Part shown: in pieces, positions 34,398 to 62,915 of the stretch
Position numbering within the stretch: position 1 is the stretch's first letter
Layout of the letters: every line of letters begins with the position of its first letter
NCBI RefSeq assembly: GCF_000165425.1
Contig: NW_001799089.1
Coordinates: 377,496 to 441,495, forward strand
Direction: 5' to 3'
DNA length: 64,000 bases
Source: Paramecium tetraurelia
Lineage: Eukaryota > Ciliophora > Oligohymenophorea > Peniculida > Parameciidae
The notes under the pieces: generated by a model
Database searches by the model: none
Seen by the model: the letters and a program-made list of their open reading frames with translations, nothing else
Told to the model about the DNA's origin: nothing
Made by a program: the position numbers and the translations under genes

Positions 34398-36028
34398 TCA
34401 TTTACTTTCAAAAACACAGAATGCATTTGATCTAACAGTTTCTACTTTAACTTCTGGTCCCACCATTGTTCTAATATCACGGATATCATAATAAATCATA
34501 GTTGGTCTTTCCAATCCCAAACCCCATGCAATCACATTCACATCTTCTGGAATGCCAAGAGGTGCTAACATTTCAGGTCTGAAAACACCAGAATTACCAA
34601 TTTCAACCTTCTTCTTTAAAACAGGATGATATCCTAGAATAGTGATAAACAATTACCATAAATCTCCATACTTGGTTCGGTATATGGATTATAAGTGGGT
34701 TTAAACCACAATTTGTTTATTCCAATTTACCTAAAGAATTCTCTGATGATCCCCATCAATTATCCTAATGAGGCATTCTTATCAATCACAACTCCTTCAA
34801 TCTAATGAAATTCTGCCAAATGAGTTGCATCTAAAGTTTCATTTCTGAAAACTTTATCTATACTAAAATATTTCTTTGGGAAATAACCCTTCTCTTTATA
34901 TTATTAAGCAATTCTATAAAGCATTTTAGATGAGACAGCTGTTGTATGTGTTCTTAATATATTTTTTCTGGCTTCTTCGTGTGACCATTCGTATTGATAT
35001 CCAATACTACCAACACCTCCTGTCTAATGCATAGCTTTTACTTTATCTCTCAACGTATTATCTACTTCTTCGCTGAGTTCTGGATCACTACAAAAGAATG
35101 TATCATGTGCGTCTCTTGCTGGATGTTTCTAAGGTTAAAATAAAGCATCGAAATTCCAAAAAGATGACTCAACAAATTAATTTGTTGGCATTTCTTCAAA
35201 TCCCATTCCAATTAAAATTTATGAGAACTATTTCCTTACTTTTAAGAGAGGATGCAAATTACCCATTGAAACTAATAATATAAAATTTGATTATTACTCT
35301 TTTCCCCTTCTGCATTAAGATTAATACTTTTATAATCACAATCCTTCCATTCTCCACTGAGTAATTATTCTGTGGTTAATGCTGCAAACTATTCTCTAAA
35401 TTTTGAATTGTATTTAACACCTTTCTTCACCTCAAAGTATTTAATAGTTGATATGCTAGCCAATTTTCTTTCAATCAATAGTTTTGCTTATGGTGATCCT
35501 AATTTGATTTCATTAAATGATTATAATTCTTGTTTTATTTTATCAGGCATGTCATTTGCTACTTTACTTATCATACCCTTATCCAATTTAATATATCCCA
35601 TTTTCTTTGCATTTCCAAAACCTTAATCAAACAATTTCTTTTTAGGATCCTCTACTTGTTTTTCTTTCTTTTCTCCTTATTCTTATTTTTACTTGGGTGG
35701 CTGATCAATTCCAAATTATTTTTGTAAATCTGTCATAGATATTCCACCTTCAGGCACTTTTTAATAAATCTCATATTCTCCAGATTATGAATTTAATATA
35801 GTATTCCCCTCTTCATTCAGAAATAATTAATCTTTTTTTAAACCCTATTTATTATTGTTATCATCCTACCTCGGTAATGATATAATTTGCTGCTTCTAAT
35901 TATAATAGATATCCAACTAATTCTTGATGATTGATGCCTATTGTCTATGCAACTTATAAGGAATTAATAGATTCTTAATTCTCTAATAAACTAAGAATTT
36001 GATTTGCGTGATCGTGTTTTTAATCCAT
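34398..36028 (-). CDS. FARSA: phenylalanyl-tRNA synthetase alpha subunit, cytosolic type
   Basis: It charges tRNA-Phe as part of an alpha2-beta2 enzyme. Starting at 36028 ([15 protein letters not shown]), the N-terminus resembles the winged-helix tRNA-binding region of eukaryotic PheRS alpha. The catalytic class II core includes [27 protein letters not shown] (motif 2 region) and, near the end, [13 protein letters not shown] plus [10 protein letters not shown] (motif 3). The protein stops shortly after that at the TGA at 34398. Several short introns interrupt the frame and were not all placed. Its stop converges on the Rab gene with 42 bases between. Confidence 0.93.
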
Positions 36029-36265: not shown

Positions 36266-38245
36266 ATGGAAGAATAATTGTCGCAGTAATTCGATTGTAT
36301 CAAATTTATTGAATCCCATCTACAAGGTACTTAAGACATAGATATGCAATTAACTGATTTATCTTTTCAACTACAATTGTTGAAATCTGACTCAGAGGAA
36401 TAAATCATTCAAGAAACAAAAGCAATTTATTAAAACCAAGACTAAATCATTCAAGATACTTAATAATTATTTAAAGAGCTGATCGATTACAAAGATCTAC
36501 AAGATTAGTATATTAGTCAAACTTTGCCATTTTTAGCATAAGATAACAAACTATATTAAAAAATGGATGAATGCCTAAGATACAAAAAAAATATTAGAGA
36601 CAGTTTAGACATGTTTGAAATTGTGATGCAATTAGATTAGATATATGATTAGTATTAAAAGATAATTGAGGATAACGATATTTAGTAATTGTTGGACAAT
36701 ATCAAGAATAATATTAGAATTTTTAAAATCCTATTACAACTACCGAAAATGAGTCCTAGATATGGACAAATAGAGAAGATTGTCAATTTGGTTGAATCAT
36801 ATTGCCATTAAGAATTATTTACATCTAAGCAATCATAACAAAAATTAGAAATTCTAGATTTGCTTGATATTTCATCTAGGGCAGCTAGCATTTATTTGTA
36901 ATAGAGACTAAAAGTCATTGACCTTTCTTAATTAACTTTAAATGATTTATTGAGTACTTAAGATGCATAAGAATTGGTTCATCTTATGATTTCAATCACA
37001 GATAATGAATTACAATATTTGAGAAATATGAATAATTTTTAATCGTTTTTCTTTGAATTTTTGAAGTACTTGATTTCATATTTTAATAAAAACTTATTTA
37101 AGCAGTATTTCAACTTTGAAAACCAATACAATAGAAATTTAGAAGTATTCCACTAATTATTATTTAATAGTTTCTATATGGTTATTTAACATACTACAAC
37201 ATTTTGTAATCGTATTCTGATAAAGGATATTTGCAACCCAAACATTTTGATTAGATATTAAAACTTGCATTTGAGCCTTACAGTGCTATAATAAAGATAA
37301 TAGTGAAAAATGAATGTTAATTTCTTTAAGGAAATATAAATTTCTAAATAGATTCCACAAAGTCAATTAATGAGAAATTGGCAAGCTTTGATTTCAATAA
37401 ATAAGATATACTGGAATAATCATTTAAAAGGTGTTATGATTTGAGTTTCTAAATAGCTTTTGAAGATTGGGTATTTGAATGTATAAAAATTTTGGATAAT
37501 TTATTAATCATTTTGAATCAAATTATTGATGAAATACCTTTGGATTAATTTGGATCATACATTTAATCAATTATCAATTAATCTGAGAATTAGCAATTCA
37601 TCAAAGGAACCAATTCAAAATTTTAGATGAAACATAACATTTCTTTGTTTGAGTTACTCATAACTAAGCATTATGAATTACATAATTTTAGAATGAATCA
37701 GCTGGTTGAATTAGATACTTTTATTAGAAAAACGATTGAAAAAAATATGGAAGAAGAATTATTGAGATAGATTTCTTAAATTATAAGGGAAAGTATACTT
37801 TATTGATATATAAATAGAATTGTAAATGAATAGAAATAAAGCCATTTTAAATCAATATATGGAAACATTATCTTTGACATCTGCACTTAGATAATTAATT
37901 GAGGAATGTGAAAATAAACTCTCTATTCATATACTTAGATTGTTATTGCAAGATAGTTTAAATTAAGATCAGGATTATATTCATTCATTTACCACAAATT
38001 TAGAGTTAATTGAAAACATTTTTAAATCTATAAAAGCAAATAAAATCAATTTTAAGGCTTGTGTGAATTTGAATTAGAATGTTTCATATGAAGAATTAGA
38101 GGAAAAATCGAAAAATAATTATTTTAGTCAACCAACTTGTTTTTGGGCAACAATGCACATTTTAGTAGAAACTAAGTTCATTTAAATCAAAGAATTAAAA
38201 CCTTTTTATGAAAAATTTGTTATATATGATAATTTATATAAATGA
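36266..38245 (+). CDS. COG7-like tethering complex subunit
   Basis: Two introns (37145-37170 and 37793-37817) give 642 residues, mostly helical. The N-terminal coiled coil, then a stretch around LLQLPKMSPRYGQIEKIVNL and the following helix EILDLLDISSRAASIYLQQR, resemble the N-terminal half of COG subunit 7 (pattern mDxpDYxeKxxxlexlknRLE). COG is a Golgi vesicle-tethering complex. The match is by pattern only and other CATCHR tethers (exocyst, GARP) are possible. The stop codon overlaps the ATG of the next gene by four bases. Confidence 0.55.
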
Positions 38246-39853
38246 TTCTTAAACAATGCAGTTCCAAAGAAGGTTTCGATTCATCCAGTGAAGATGAATA
38301 CCTTGATTAATTCAAAACTAAATTCAGAACCTTAGATTATTATGAAGGACTTAATAAAGAGGAGGAAAAAAAACAATACAATTCCTAAGCTGTCTAATAA
38401 TAATATCGAAACCTCACTCTAAATGTTCCTGAGTTGAAATATAACAATTCAACTATATTCTTAGGATAACCATTTTATAATACACAATAAATACACAGAT
38501 TAATTGAAAACAAAGAATATTCAAATGATTTTGAATTTTAGCCTTAAATATTGAGACCTTTTCTTGGTATGTTGAAATAAGGCATATAATTCAATTCCAG
38601 CTTTGAATCTGGTAATTTAGATCGAGTTGACTAGGTAATATTTCCTATTTTTAAAATAGATTTCAAATGAAGAATATAATTTATTCATGAGAATTGACAC
38701 AAATTCTATCGGTCATAGTAACTGGTTTTATTTCAAAACTACAAATAACCAATTGAACAAAATTAAATTCAATATCTGCAATTTTACTAAACCATAAAGT
38801 CTATATACAAAAGGAATGAAACCCTATATATTATCAAAAAAAGGGTCTTAAAAGTATTTTACACAATAAGGAGAATTTATTAGATATCAATAAGTTGGAG
38901 AACTTTATGTTTTATCCTTCATTTATTAATATGAGTATGTGGATGATGAAGTTGAATTTGCCACTCTTCCGCCATATACATACACAGAATTAAGAAGAAA
39001 GATTAAAAAATGGCATAAGAAATCTAAATAATATCTAACTAAACATAAATTAACAACTACATTAACTGGCCTTGTTTTGCCTCTTCTTGTTATAACTGAA
39101 AAAAACTCAAATAAAAATAAAAAAATCATCATCATAACTGCAAGAATTCATCCTTCAGAAACTTGTAGTTCTTTTATGATGCAAGGAGTGATATAATTCT
39201 TGTTAAGTGAATCCTTCATGGCATCATATTTAAGAAAAAAGTAAACTTTTTTAATTATACTAAAGTATCGTTTTAAAATTATTCCTATGTTAAATCCAGA
39301 TGGGGTGATTGTAGGTAATTTTAGAAATGGATTAAGTGGAGTTGATCTCAATAGGTAATTCTTGGAAACTGATTTAACTTTATTACCAGAAGTTAAAGCT
39401 TTAAAGAATTTAATTGAAGACAATTCTCCCTAATTAATAGCCTATTTAGACTTTCATGGACATTTAGTAAGAAAAAATATATTTCTGTATGGACCATCAT
39501 CAAATAGTATAAATTATGATTCTAAAATATTTCCACTGATTCTTCAACAAAGGTTAGAATCTTTTCGATATAAATCTTGTGAATTTGGAATCCCAAAATT
39601 TAAGATGGGAACAGCAAGAGCATTTGCAAATTGCTTTATAGATACTTTATGTTATACTATAGAAGCATCATTTTGTGGATATTAAAAGGGAAAATCCTTA
39701 AAATTTATTTCAAAAGATTGGATTTAAGCTGGATAATGTATTGGAGAAACCTTATTTTTATATTTTAATTTTAAATAAATCAATTCAAAATAATTAAGTA
39801 AAACATAATTGATGATTATTAGAATAAAACTAACTGATGAAAACAATAAATGA
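38242..39853 (+). CDS. AGBL: cytosolic M14 metallocarboxypeptidase (CCP/AGBL family)
   Basis: CCPs remove glutamate residues from tubulin tails. One intron (38635-38659) gives 528 residues. The N-terminal domain contains the CCP signature [14 protein letters not shown]. The catalytic domain has the zinc motif RIHPSET (HxxE), [19 protein letters not shown], the substrate-binding GVDLNRQF, the third zinc ligand in DFHGH, and the general-base Glu in [10 protein letters not shown]. Canonical CCPs have HPGE where this has HPSE. The start is the first in-frame ATG; it overlaps the upstream stop as ATGA, so a later Met (near 38568) is possible. In a ciliate the likely substrate is axonemal tubulin. 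Confidence 0.88.
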
Positions 39854-39854
39854 A

Positions 39855-40498
39855 ATGTCTAGCAAAGTTGAGTAAACTGAAGCAAAACATGAATCAGACG
39901 ATGAGAATGACAGTCAATCGGATGCAGAAATATTTGAGGATTATGATAACGATAAGCTAGCATGCTTATAAAGTTAAATGAAGGCCGAATTAAGCCAATA
40001 AAATTTGGTTGTAATTAATAAAGGAGATTCTCAAAGAAAACGTATGAAAGCTTAAACAGTATCCAGAAAAATCAAGATATAACCTATTTTTATAATGAAT
40101 AAAAGTAATTAAATTAATTAATTAGAGATCAAAGAAAACCTATAGCATATCCAGAGTTGAATATTTAAAATTGGGAGTTCTCTAATAAAACAAATCAATC
40201 TATAGATACTAAAACTAGCTTCTAACAAAAGGGAATTAAAAACAAAATACCTTCGACTTTTAGATTTGTATCAAGCAAAAGGGCCACATCTCTTCATGGA
40301 ACATCACCCATCAATTAATTTCCACAGGAAATAAATACAACTCAATAAATATAGCCAACTCCCCCAGTGTAAATTCCATCAAAACTGAATTCCAATAACT
40401 TTCCTATCTTAGAAAATACTAGTTAAATGTCAACACCTTAATATTTGCCTTTCATTACAAAACTTTTGAAGAGCAAAAGAATAGTCACATAGAGTTGA
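39855..40498 (+). CDS. hypothetical protein, acidic N-terminus, disordered
   Basis: One intron (40105-40127) gives 206 residues with matching phases. The N-terminus is acidic (ESDDENDSQSDAEIFEDY), the middle basic and the C-terminus rich in Ser, Thr, Pro, Asn and Gln, so it is probably disordered. Its ATG lies one base after the TGA of the carboxypeptidase gene. No family recognised. Confidence 0.65.
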
Positions 40499-42081: not shown

Positions 42082-43187
<1,106 letters not shown>

Positions 43188-44325: not shown

Positions 44326-45962
44326 ATGACATAAAAAACAATTGATCAATATGTGTTTAATACAAAGGATGTGTTAGGATAAGGGTCATTTGGAGTAGTT
44401 TTCAAAGCGACCAACAAAATAACGGGCAGAGAAGTGGCATTGAAAATGATATCAAAGGATAAAATGTTGAAAGATCAAAATGCTATTAATGGAGTAAAGA
44501 GTGAAATTTGGATTATGCAAAAACTGAACAATAAAAATATTGTATAATTAATTGATGTCTTAGAAACATCAAATAATATTTACATTATTTAAGAGATTTG
44601 CGAATCTGGAGATTTAGCTAAGTCTTTATTATTATAAATTCCCTTAGATACTTAAAATAACATTAATTTGTGAATGAATAACAGGCATTGAAAATAATGA
44701 CTGAAATTTTACAAGGTTTCATAGAGTTGATAAAATTTGGAATAATCCATAGAGATTTAAAACCAGCCAACATATTAATTCATTAAAACACTTATAAAAT
44801 TGCTGGTCTGATATTTAATATATTTTCGTAGATTTTGGATTTGCTAAAATTGTAGATAATTTTGCATAACAATTATTTTATTCATAAGTAGGTACGCCAT
44901 TGTACATGAGTCCTCAAATCTTAAAGAACGAAAAATATTCCACAAAATGTGATGTTTGGTCATTTGGATTCCTATTCTATGAAATCATTTATGGAAGAAG
45001 TACTTATCCCATAAAATGATTTATAGCCCCATGGGTTGCATCATCCATACCCTAATTAGTAAAGAATATAAATACACAACCCTTACAATTTTATGATTCT
45101 ATTAATTAAGTCTCTGATAATGTTAAGGATTTAATTTCTAAATGTTTAGCCATCTAAGAGAGTAAATAAGTATGTTTACTATAATAGAAGATCGATATAG
45201 TTGGTATGATATATTTGCTCATCCTCTCTTTAGTGCTTAATTTTCATAAACCCCAAATCTATAATAAATATGCGAAGTACTATCTCATTTCTATTAAATA
45301 ATAGCAAAAGGAACTTTACATTGCTAACCGTTTACGAGAGATATTGGGTGCAAAATAAATTAACAACAATTAGATAATTGAAGAATTATAATAGAATTCA
45401 GATGACATTATTCTACAAGACAAATTGAAGGAATTATTAATTGACATTGATGCTGATTTGGAAGACTATGCAATTTAATACATATTTAATAGTATTGATG
45501 AGGATTAAAATGGTTAGATTACATGTTAAGAATTTTGTAATTGGATGATAAAACATGAAGTTATGCATAAATTGAATTATTTTAGATTATTAATGATTTT
45601 TAAGTCAGAAGTACATCAAATACTATCAGCGGTCCATATCAGATCCAATAATAAGAAGTTCAAGATAAGAAAGACACTAAAACTATTATTTATAATTTGA
45701 TTTCTGCGATACAATAATAAAATGAAAATCTGGTAGAATTGTTTTACAAATTTGTAAAAGGGTAAGAAAATATGAGCTCAGATGATTTTGCAGATCTTTT
45801 ACTGTACTTATTTATTATTATAATATACTTAGGTACTATGATGATAGTTTATCTGATGATGAAATATTCTCGACCTTTTAAGTGTTTGATCTGGATGAAA
45901 AAAATGAAATCACACTATAGTAATTCAAATACATTCTTGAATAAGATATAGATGATTATTGA
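44326..45962 (+). CDS. EF-hand protein kinase
   Basis: Seven introns of 26-29 nt give 482 residues with consistent phases. The N-terminal kinase domain is complete: LGQGSFGVVF, the ATP Lys in VALKMIS, IIHRDLKPANIL, DFGFAK, and an APE-loop equivalent GTPLYMSPQIL. Downstream lie at least two EF-hands: SIDEDQNGQITCQEF with a full set of calcium ligands, and FDLDEKNEITLQQF. The layout resembles calcium-dependent kinases of ciliates and apicomplexans, though the kinase domain also has ULK/Fused-like features. Calcium regulation is inferred from the EF-hands. Confidence 0.9.
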
Positions 45963-60795: not shown

Positions 60796-62145
60796 ATGTT
60801 AACAATCTTTGATGAGTTTTATAATAATAAAAATATCCCTGACTTCCTTGATGATGATGGCATACTCATGAATAAGGAGAATAACATCCAATTGAAAGAA
60901 TTGTAAGCACATTTATAAATTACTTCCAAATTAGTTTAGTCAATAATGAAGACTTAGTAACACAGATGCTCTCCTTTTTCGAGTATGATGAATTAGAAAC
61001 TGATCACAAACGTGTAATCAAATATCCTTTTGTCGTAAGCGAATTGTTAGGATCACTTTATGCTCTAAATGCAAATCATCTGAATTTCCTGATCCAATTG
61101 TTGAATTCACATAATAGTCTGCCTTCCATCACAATTGGATACATAAGTAAAGTCATTATGAATGTTCTTAAACACAATCCATGTTTTGTAATCATATATC
61201 TTAACAATTTAGTTTTGGTAAAATGTCTAATTGCCATAATTGGGTATTTTACTGCAAGATATCAATAATTATGCTATAGCTGAATTAATCTATTCTATGA
61301 TTATATATTAAACATAGGACAATCAATTGGACTATTTGAAATAAAGAATGGAATTGGTCAATTGCTTATTGAATGATATCAATACTGACAGAAGTGAGGG
61401 CATTTCCAATGTCATCTGCATGTTATTACAACAAATTACTGAAACCCTCCAAGAATAGAAATCCCTCATTATTAAACATCTATTTACTAAATTAGACATC
61501 TTTTTATCTGCTTTGCCTTATAGACCATAACCAATTTTAAGTATCCTCATTAATCTTATTAAACATCAATAATATTATGAATCTGAAGTCAATTAAATTT
61601 ACAATCATTTTCTTGAAAGATCCAAAGAATTATTTGATGATTTGCTTAAAAACAGTGGTTCTTTTGGTCAAAATAATCTCTCATACATTCAATTTTATGA
61701 TGTCTTGACCAATTAAACTTATATTTTACAGAATATCAATGCCTAACATTTAGAGATTGCATTGTTTGTATAATATTATTATATATATAGCAACTAATTC
61801 AAAAGTATCAATTTCATAATCAATTACACAAATACGCAACAAGTATCATCCTTAAATTAATTCCATAAACTGACTCTCAATAATTACTTTAAATTGCCCT
61901 TTCTGAGTTTAAGTATTTAAAATTTATAATATAGGATTAAACCAATAAAGGAAAATAGAGGATATGTGGTTTAGATAATTAACAAAATAATTGAAGTGAA
62001 TTTTAATCTACAAATTTAAGAAGAAGAGTTACAAAATATAAATTCAATTCAAAATAATTATTTTTTTGGATAGATTCCTGATTAGAAACCTACATTCAAT
62101 TTACAAGAAGAGTTTGAAGCAGCAATGAATAAATTATAAATATGA
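60796..62145 (+). CDS. PPP6R: SAPS-domain protein phosphatase 6 regulatory subunit
   Basis: Two introns (32 and 25 nt) give 430 residues. The SAPS pattern is recognisable: YPFVVSELLGSLYALNANHL (consensus RYPxxxxEILxSDVxxI), a middle block QRMELVNCLLNDINTDR (consensus ERMELVxRLL) and the helical repeats between. SAPS proteins bind and direct the PP6/Sit4 phosphatase. The C-terminal ~120 residues are less conserved and Gln/Asn-rich. Its stop is two bases from the convergent stop of TSR3. Confidence 0.8.
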
Positions 62146-62147
62146 AA

Positions 62148-62915
62148 TCATTAAATTTGGTCTTCATCTTCATCAGAACTACTTGGCATATCATAATTCT
62201 TTTATCCAGTATTCTCCTTCTTTTAAGCCATTTCCAAATACTTTAATTCAGCTACTTTCAATTCCTTATCATTCTGACATTCAGCATAGAGATCAAAAGC
62301 CTCTTTGTTTATCTTGAAGAAGTTCTCTCCCCAAGTGAATTTACTAAGAATGTAATCTGCTTATTCTCTGCGACCACATAGGGCTAATGTAGCTGCAATA
62401 GCTTCAACACAAGACAATTTGAATTGTTTCCCAAAATTAACTGGATTCACTGCTACCATATGAGGTAATAATCTTTCATTGGGAGACACATAAGTAATTT
62501 CTTCTACCTTTGCCCATGAGCAATCAATCACACAAATCCCTTTTTATAATAATTCCTCATCTTCTTTTGATACGTACTTCTTCCCATTTGCACTTACTAT
62601 GATTCCTTAGAATTTCACTTTTGGCTTAATTGCTGTCAATAATTTAAATCTTTCCATTTTTCTACCTGTGCATTTCTTGACATCGCATTAACCATAATCA
62701 ATCATAAACAATTTAATATCATTCAATCTTTCTTCTTTCTTAGTTATTTATTATTAATCTTCATCTTCACTTTCATCTTGACTGTTACTCTATTAATTAT
62801 CTATTTATTGCAATTGATGCAATGTTATTTGCTATTGATGACCCTATTATTGTTTCTAGTCTCTTTTGTCTGATCTTGCTTTTTTCCAATTTTAGTACCT
62901 CTATTTATTGTTCAT
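62148..62915 (-). CDS. TSR3: TSR3, 18S rRNA aminocarboxypropyltransferase
   Basis: TSR3 adds the acp group to a hypermodified pseudouridine in 18S rRNA late in 40S maturation. An intronless 255-residue frame starts MNNKQRYQNWKKARSDKRD. The family motifs follow in order: YGQCDVKKCTGRKMERF, VIDCSWAKVEE, RLLPHMVAVNPVNFGK and KLSCVEAIAATLALCG, then KFTWGENFF. The first ~70 residues are an added basic then Gln-rich and acidic extension, and the protein ends in an acidic tail (SSSDEDEDQI). A shorter start at the Met of MIDYGQC is less likely because the extension is in frame and charged. Confidence 0.92.

Follow-up and report, generated by a model that had tools for sequence, protein, structure and literature searches.

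A four-base overlap of coding regions in Paramecium tetraurelia and a predicted 25-nt intron behind an adjacent bacterial-style junction

Introduction

The closest described systems to the locus reported here are the compact, overlapping transcription units of Paramecium and the four-base overlapping gene pairs of bacteria and archaea. Untranslated regions (UTRs) in P. tetraurelia have medians of 19 nt at the 5' end and 44 nt at the 3' end, and its genes sometimes overlap, according to the available part of one source (PMC5485702). Our locus resembles such units, with their tiny UTRs, short gaps, overlaps and introns of about 25 nt, but differs in that the 4 shared bases are coding in both genes, and no predicted coding overlap occurs in the 50 other same-strand pairs that we sampled. 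In bacteria and archaea, as described in the available part of a second source (PMC10666635), overlaps of -4 nt are common and translation across them is coupled. The same-strand ATGA overlap is shared with those pairs, whereas the genes here are eukaryotic nuclear genes with introns, and the second of them persists alone in a duplicate. That second gene invites comparison with the CCP5/AGBL5-like cytosolic carboxypeptidases, which it resembles in its Pepdidase_M14_N and Peptidase_M14 domains and in its best match among solved structures, and from which it differs by a long C-terminal tail in which no known domain is recognised.

A preliminary description of this DNA had listed three genes on one strand, with spacings of -4 and +1 bases. 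We reanalysed both junctions by gene prediction, by protein and nucleotide searches and by comparison with a duplicated copy of the locus.

Materials and Methods

The window is the whole stretch of 64,000 nucleotides that was analysed (C121:377496-441495), and the genome searched comprises 69,072,372 bases in 231 contigs. Long open frames appear in the window only when TAA and TAG encode glutamine and TGA serves as the stop (code 6), and GC content runs from 20 to 33% in 2-kb steps. Genes were predicted with a custom finder that applies code 6, allows small introns, permits overlaps of up to 30 nt and uses no homology; its training set was the window plus 200 kb of a second contig, C2, and hence includes the window itself, and its model of intron length was retrained with introns that it had itself predicted. 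Among the 217 introns that it predicts, 54 have the modal length of 25 nt and 9 have a length divisible by 3. Spacings between neighbours were taken from 264 kb (the window and C2:50001-250000) holding 111 predicted genes and 51 neighbouring same-strand pairs. Codon counts for the duplicate on C2 cover 598 codons, with the last exon left out and one intron taken as 24 nt, for which the mapping of the duplicate's protein uses 22 nt. Gene structures derive from sequence and comparison, and transcript ends from the published P. tetraurelia UTR lengths.

Results

We hold it probable that the locus comprises two genes, gene 1 and one carboxypeptidase gene, which form independent units with coding ends overlapping by 4 bases (Table 1). 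Three genes had been proposed; two are favoured by the predicted splice at 39798-39822, by the gene finder and by the duplicate on C2. In its default setting the finder gives gene 1 two introns and the limits 36266-38245, and predicts after it a single gene at 38242-40498. The same gene 1 is found in three of the five further settings and ends at 37806 in the other two, with the C2-trained model and with overlaps forbidden; the carboxypeptidase gene starts at 38242 in the default and in four of the five further settings, and at 39287 with the C2-trained model.

Table 1. Features of the locus, in window coordinates
Feature	Position	Strand	Evidence
Gene 1 (predicted, 642 aa)	36266..38245	+	Code 6 translation; gene finder
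Carboxypeptidase gene, predicted as single (earlier genes 2 and 3)	38242..40498	+	Pfam; solved relative; gene finder; duplicate copy
ATGA, carboxypeptidase start over gene 1 stop	38242..38245	+	Direct reading
Leader-like block, 16 nt, 5' of the carboxypeptidase ATG	38226..38241	+	Kept in the duplicate (one extra T), though gene 1 is not detected there
Carboxypeptidase intron 1, 25 nt (predicted)	38635..38659	+	Candidate list; finder; mapping of the duplicate's protein; intron at the same place in the duplicate
Predicted intron missed earlier, 25 nt, GTA...TAG	39798..39822	+	Candidate list; finder; 25-nt intron of the duplicate, C2:127659-127635
TGA-A-ATG, earlier stop, spacer and start	39851..39857	+	Part of N-E-M when the frame is spliced
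Last carboxypeptidase intron, 23 nt, least certain	40105..40127	+	Favoured by the duplicate's protein; finder preferred 40011-40036

Removal of two predicted introns, at 37145-37170 (26 nt) and 37793-37817 (25 nt), leaves gene 1 open to the TGA at 38243-38245. Its protein has no match in Pfam at E up to 1; searched against the genome it gives three matches, all at its own locus, and against solved structures six rows, all of them designed constructs (best E 0.0032). The earlier label of this gene as COG7-like thus finds no support from Pfam or solved structures, and a genome search with the COG7 model (PF10191) was silent here and in all 14 control genomes and is hence uninformative.

The joined product of the two downstream frames carries both the catalytic domain and the N-terminal M14_N domain by which cytosolic carboxypeptidases of the M14 family are recognised (Peptidase_M14, PF00246, 4.3e-16, 59.8 bits against a cut-off of 21.6; Pepdidase_M14_N, PF18027, 8.5e-11, 42.4 bits against 23.2), and among solved structures its best match is to cytosolic carboxypeptidase-like protein 5 (7.4e-31). 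The predicted gene at 38242-40498 most likely encodes a cytosolic carboxypeptidase with a C-terminal tail. Pfam recognises no known domain in this tail, which was located in the genome (E up to 0.1) only behind this carboxypeptidase and its duplicate; the carboxypeptidase query itself gives 64 exon-level matches genome-wide. Two places within the gene deserve mention on their own. Window positions 39241-39265 resemble a 25-nt intron, and the duplicate has an intron at the same place (C2:128208-128184); splicing here would break the window frame, which is open unspliced, so that the segment may be an exonised intron or reflect a homopolymer difference. The last intron ends in GAG and not TAG, next to a run of A that has one base less than in the duplicate, and if a cheap frameshift is allowed the mapping of the duplicate's protein prefers 40105-40125 plus a frameshift over 40105-40127.

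The duplicate occupies C2:129213-126990 (minus strand), where protein searches of the genome find the carboxypeptidase and then the tail in the same order. We read this segment as the whole-genome-duplication copy of the locus (its ohnolog) because the flanking genes match as well: 34398-36028 with C2 130040-131674 (90.5%), 42082-43187 with C2 120981-122500 (91.5%) and 44326-45962 with C2 118581-120216 (50.4%). Neither blastn nor tblastn detects a copy of gene 1 upstream of the ohnolog. Over the 5 kb that precede the ohnolog start, blastn ranks first a 39-nt start block (94.9%, E 1.07e-8), which includes the 16-nt leader-like block, and the second row covers 586 bases at 57.5% (E 1.5e-6); within the whole 200 kb of C2 the start block is beaten by an unrelated place with 59% identity along 776 bases (E 5.8e-11), and such E-values mean little alone, since rows from the AT-rich background are common. 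The tblastn search of C2 with gene 1 returns a single row, at E 9.5. From the neighbour's ATG to the carboxypeptidase ATG on C2 is 826 bases, and where gene 1 would have stood there is a small predicted gene, C2:129459-130014, which is probably spurious. Among species of the P. aurelia group, one copy has been lost for 40-60% of whole-genome-duplication pairs (PMC10195154, in the part available).

At the -4 junction the bases are as first described, with the gene 1 stop (TGA, 38243-38245) lying over the carboxypeptidase start (ATG, 38242-38244). The first eight residues, MILKQCSS, are identical in the ohnolog, which starts at the same ATG, and residues 8-15 show four silent changes and one replacement. 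The suggestion that a later start codon is used appears unlikely in view of this identity, the next in-frame ATG being codon 110. Introns bridging the two frames were also sought: no GTA...AG candidate of 18-40 nt connects them, and an intron starting at the GT at 38219, examined by hand, would take 43 nt or more and give the wrong frame.

Conservation extends a short way upstream of this start. The 16 bases before the ATG match the ohnolog with at most one indel, a match reached by 2 of 6105 unrelated upstream pairs, which share members and so are not independent. This leader looks constrained, because four-fold sites of the two copies agree in just 27 of 79 cases, and the conserved segment is short, because over 60 upstream bases the two copies resemble each other only as much as shuffled sequences do. 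Over 20 upstream bases, three of six ohnolog pairs have 17, 18 and 18 identical positions (one of the three being the carboxypeptidase pair) and the others 14, 14 and 11; shuffles averaged about 13-15, and only the carboxypeptidase pair beat all 200 of its own.

Since the ohnolog keeps both the ATG and the leader with gene 1 undetected upstream, the carboxypeptidase appears able to start alone, and its own start signal seems to lie inside the end of gene 1. Of the options listed in the preliminary description for the -4 spacing, a leader within the upstream gene is for the same reason the best fit. Two overlapping single-gene units are to be expected with P. tetraurelia UTRs of such lengths, and most likely the overlap reflects transcripts of single genes that run into one another in a very compact genome. 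On the simplest reading, the carboxypeptidase mRNA would most likely begin about 15-20 nt before its ATG, within the final codons of gene 1; the mRNA of gene 1 would most likely end about 40-50 nt into the carboxypeptidase coding region, and the two genes would be independent transcription units whose coding ends share 4 bases.

A dicistronic mRNA carrying gene 1 and the carboxypeptidase, with reinitiation at the ATGA, would account for the same-strand 4-base overlap and would have its precedent in the coupled bacterial and archaeal pairs, but we consider it unlikely: the ohnolog retains ATG and leader where no gene 1 is detected upstream, TGA is preceded by A at 51 of the 111 predicted stops, and a literature search showed, at the level of titles and abstract openings, no nuclear case from a ciliate among the 20 papers listed. 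Polycistronic transcription, one of the options raised earlier, gains no positive support. Its more specific form, in which the mRNA is dicistronic here with reinitiation at the ATGA while the C2 copy has turned into a single-gene unit, seems to us very unlikely.

The two leaders also differ in a run of T, which is T4 in C2 and T3 in the window, and an assembly error could therefore matter. If gene 1 and the carboxypeptidase were one fused gene split by a one-base error near 38233, the T4 of C2 in place of T3 would, by our reading by hand, make the frames continuous, and another sampled pair spaced by less than 50 nt is probably a split single gene. Against such a fusion, gene 1 is found nowhere else, set beside the 64 carboxypeptidase matches across the genome, the ohnolog, beginning at that same ATG, stands by itself, and in a control on four other ohnolog pairs six of eight protein-on-genome runs needed no frameshift; the other two had one and two frameshifts with 367 and 121 gap steps, the predicted proteins differing in extent. 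We regard the fusion as improbable and retain two overlapping single-gene units.

At the +1 junction the bases again read as described, with a TGA at 39851-39853 and an ATG at 39855, but they do not appear to mark a gene boundary. The segment 39798-39822, GTAAAACATAATTGATGATTATTAG, is a GTA...TAG candidate whose 25 nt equal the modal local intron length; it has the marks of spliceosomal introns in Paramecium (GT...AG ends, about 25 nt, a length rarely a multiple of 3), and once it is removed the carboxypeptidase continues in the frame of the former third gene, open past the TGA. The motif by itself is weak, since within the last 80 bases of 11 of the 111 predicted genes there is a GTA...TAG of 22-29 nt whose length is not divisible by 3. 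The ohnolog has at the same place GTAAGGCTAAAGATATGAATTATAG, also 25 nt and GTA...TAG, with 15 of 25 bases identical. After the join, KSNQLLKKINE in the window aligns with KQNQLMKTINE in the ohnolog (BLOSUM62 score 41 over 11 residues), compared with scores of 28 over the whole 18-residue stretch of the unspliced frame and 16 over its 9 residues past the intron, so that conservation of the protein is higher with splicing than without it. Differences in the 11 codons past the join number 3, 2 and 3 by codon position, with no third-position excess. The finder uses this intron in all six settings that permit it (the default and five of five others); if it is forbidden, the finder returns separate genes, one ending at 39853 and the next starting at 39855. 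Mapping of the ohnolog protein onto the window is partly circular here, the intron having already been removed in making that protein.

Genes 2 and 3 are thus very probably joined by splicing at 39798-39822, as predicted from sequence and from the duplicate. An extra intron, which the preliminary description had named as the finding that would undo the close packing, is what sequence and comparison point to at this junction. Spliced out, it would yield one cytosolic carboxypeptidase gene; retained, it would let translation run to the TGA at 39851-39853. That all three genes are real and the +1 spacing is a conserved one is highly improbable: TGA-A-ATG is retained in the ohnolog too, as a conserved two-gene arrangement predicts, and this counts as evidence against the join, but the two copies have a 25-nt GTA...TAG at corresponding positions, the spliced frame is the better conserved, and the tail lacks a known domain and was located, at E up to 0.1, only behind the carboxypeptidase and its ohnolog.

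Discussion

Our findings suggest that one tiny intron can mimic a bacterial-style gene junction, and that the preliminary description's view of the packing as odd for a nuclear genome holds for one of its two elements. The -4 spacing is unusual in our sample, as the sole predicted coding overlap among the 51 same-strand pairs, whereas the ATGA tetranucleotide is no clue, because A precedes TGA so frequently and TGA is the only stop in this code. The smallest same-strand spacings are -4, 1, 25, 51, 67 and 75; the median over the 51 pairs is 427, which exceeds the few dozen base pairs given for intergenic regions in the available part of PMC11334263. The pair spaced by 25 nt includes the doubtful small predicted gene at C2 129459-130014. 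The pair spaced by 1 (C2:181077-183124) has DEAD and Helicase_C domains followed by GUCT and RRM domains, which are parts of one protein in the DDX21 family; for that reason the pair is probably a single gene, divided by an unusual intron or by a difference in frame. With the -4, 1 and 25 pairs set aside, no gap is below 51, a value close to the 63 nt to which the published UTR medians add up. An exceptional spacing of this kind makes the overlap more interesting and also more likely to be an artefact.

Together, the -4 overlap and an ohnolog without gene 1 offer a natural test of the minimum size of a Paramecium promoter, and the overlap also tests whether a promoter can lie wholly within the coding end of a neighbour. 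Elsewhere in the window, at 61162-62915, two convergent predicted genes have stops 2 bases apart.
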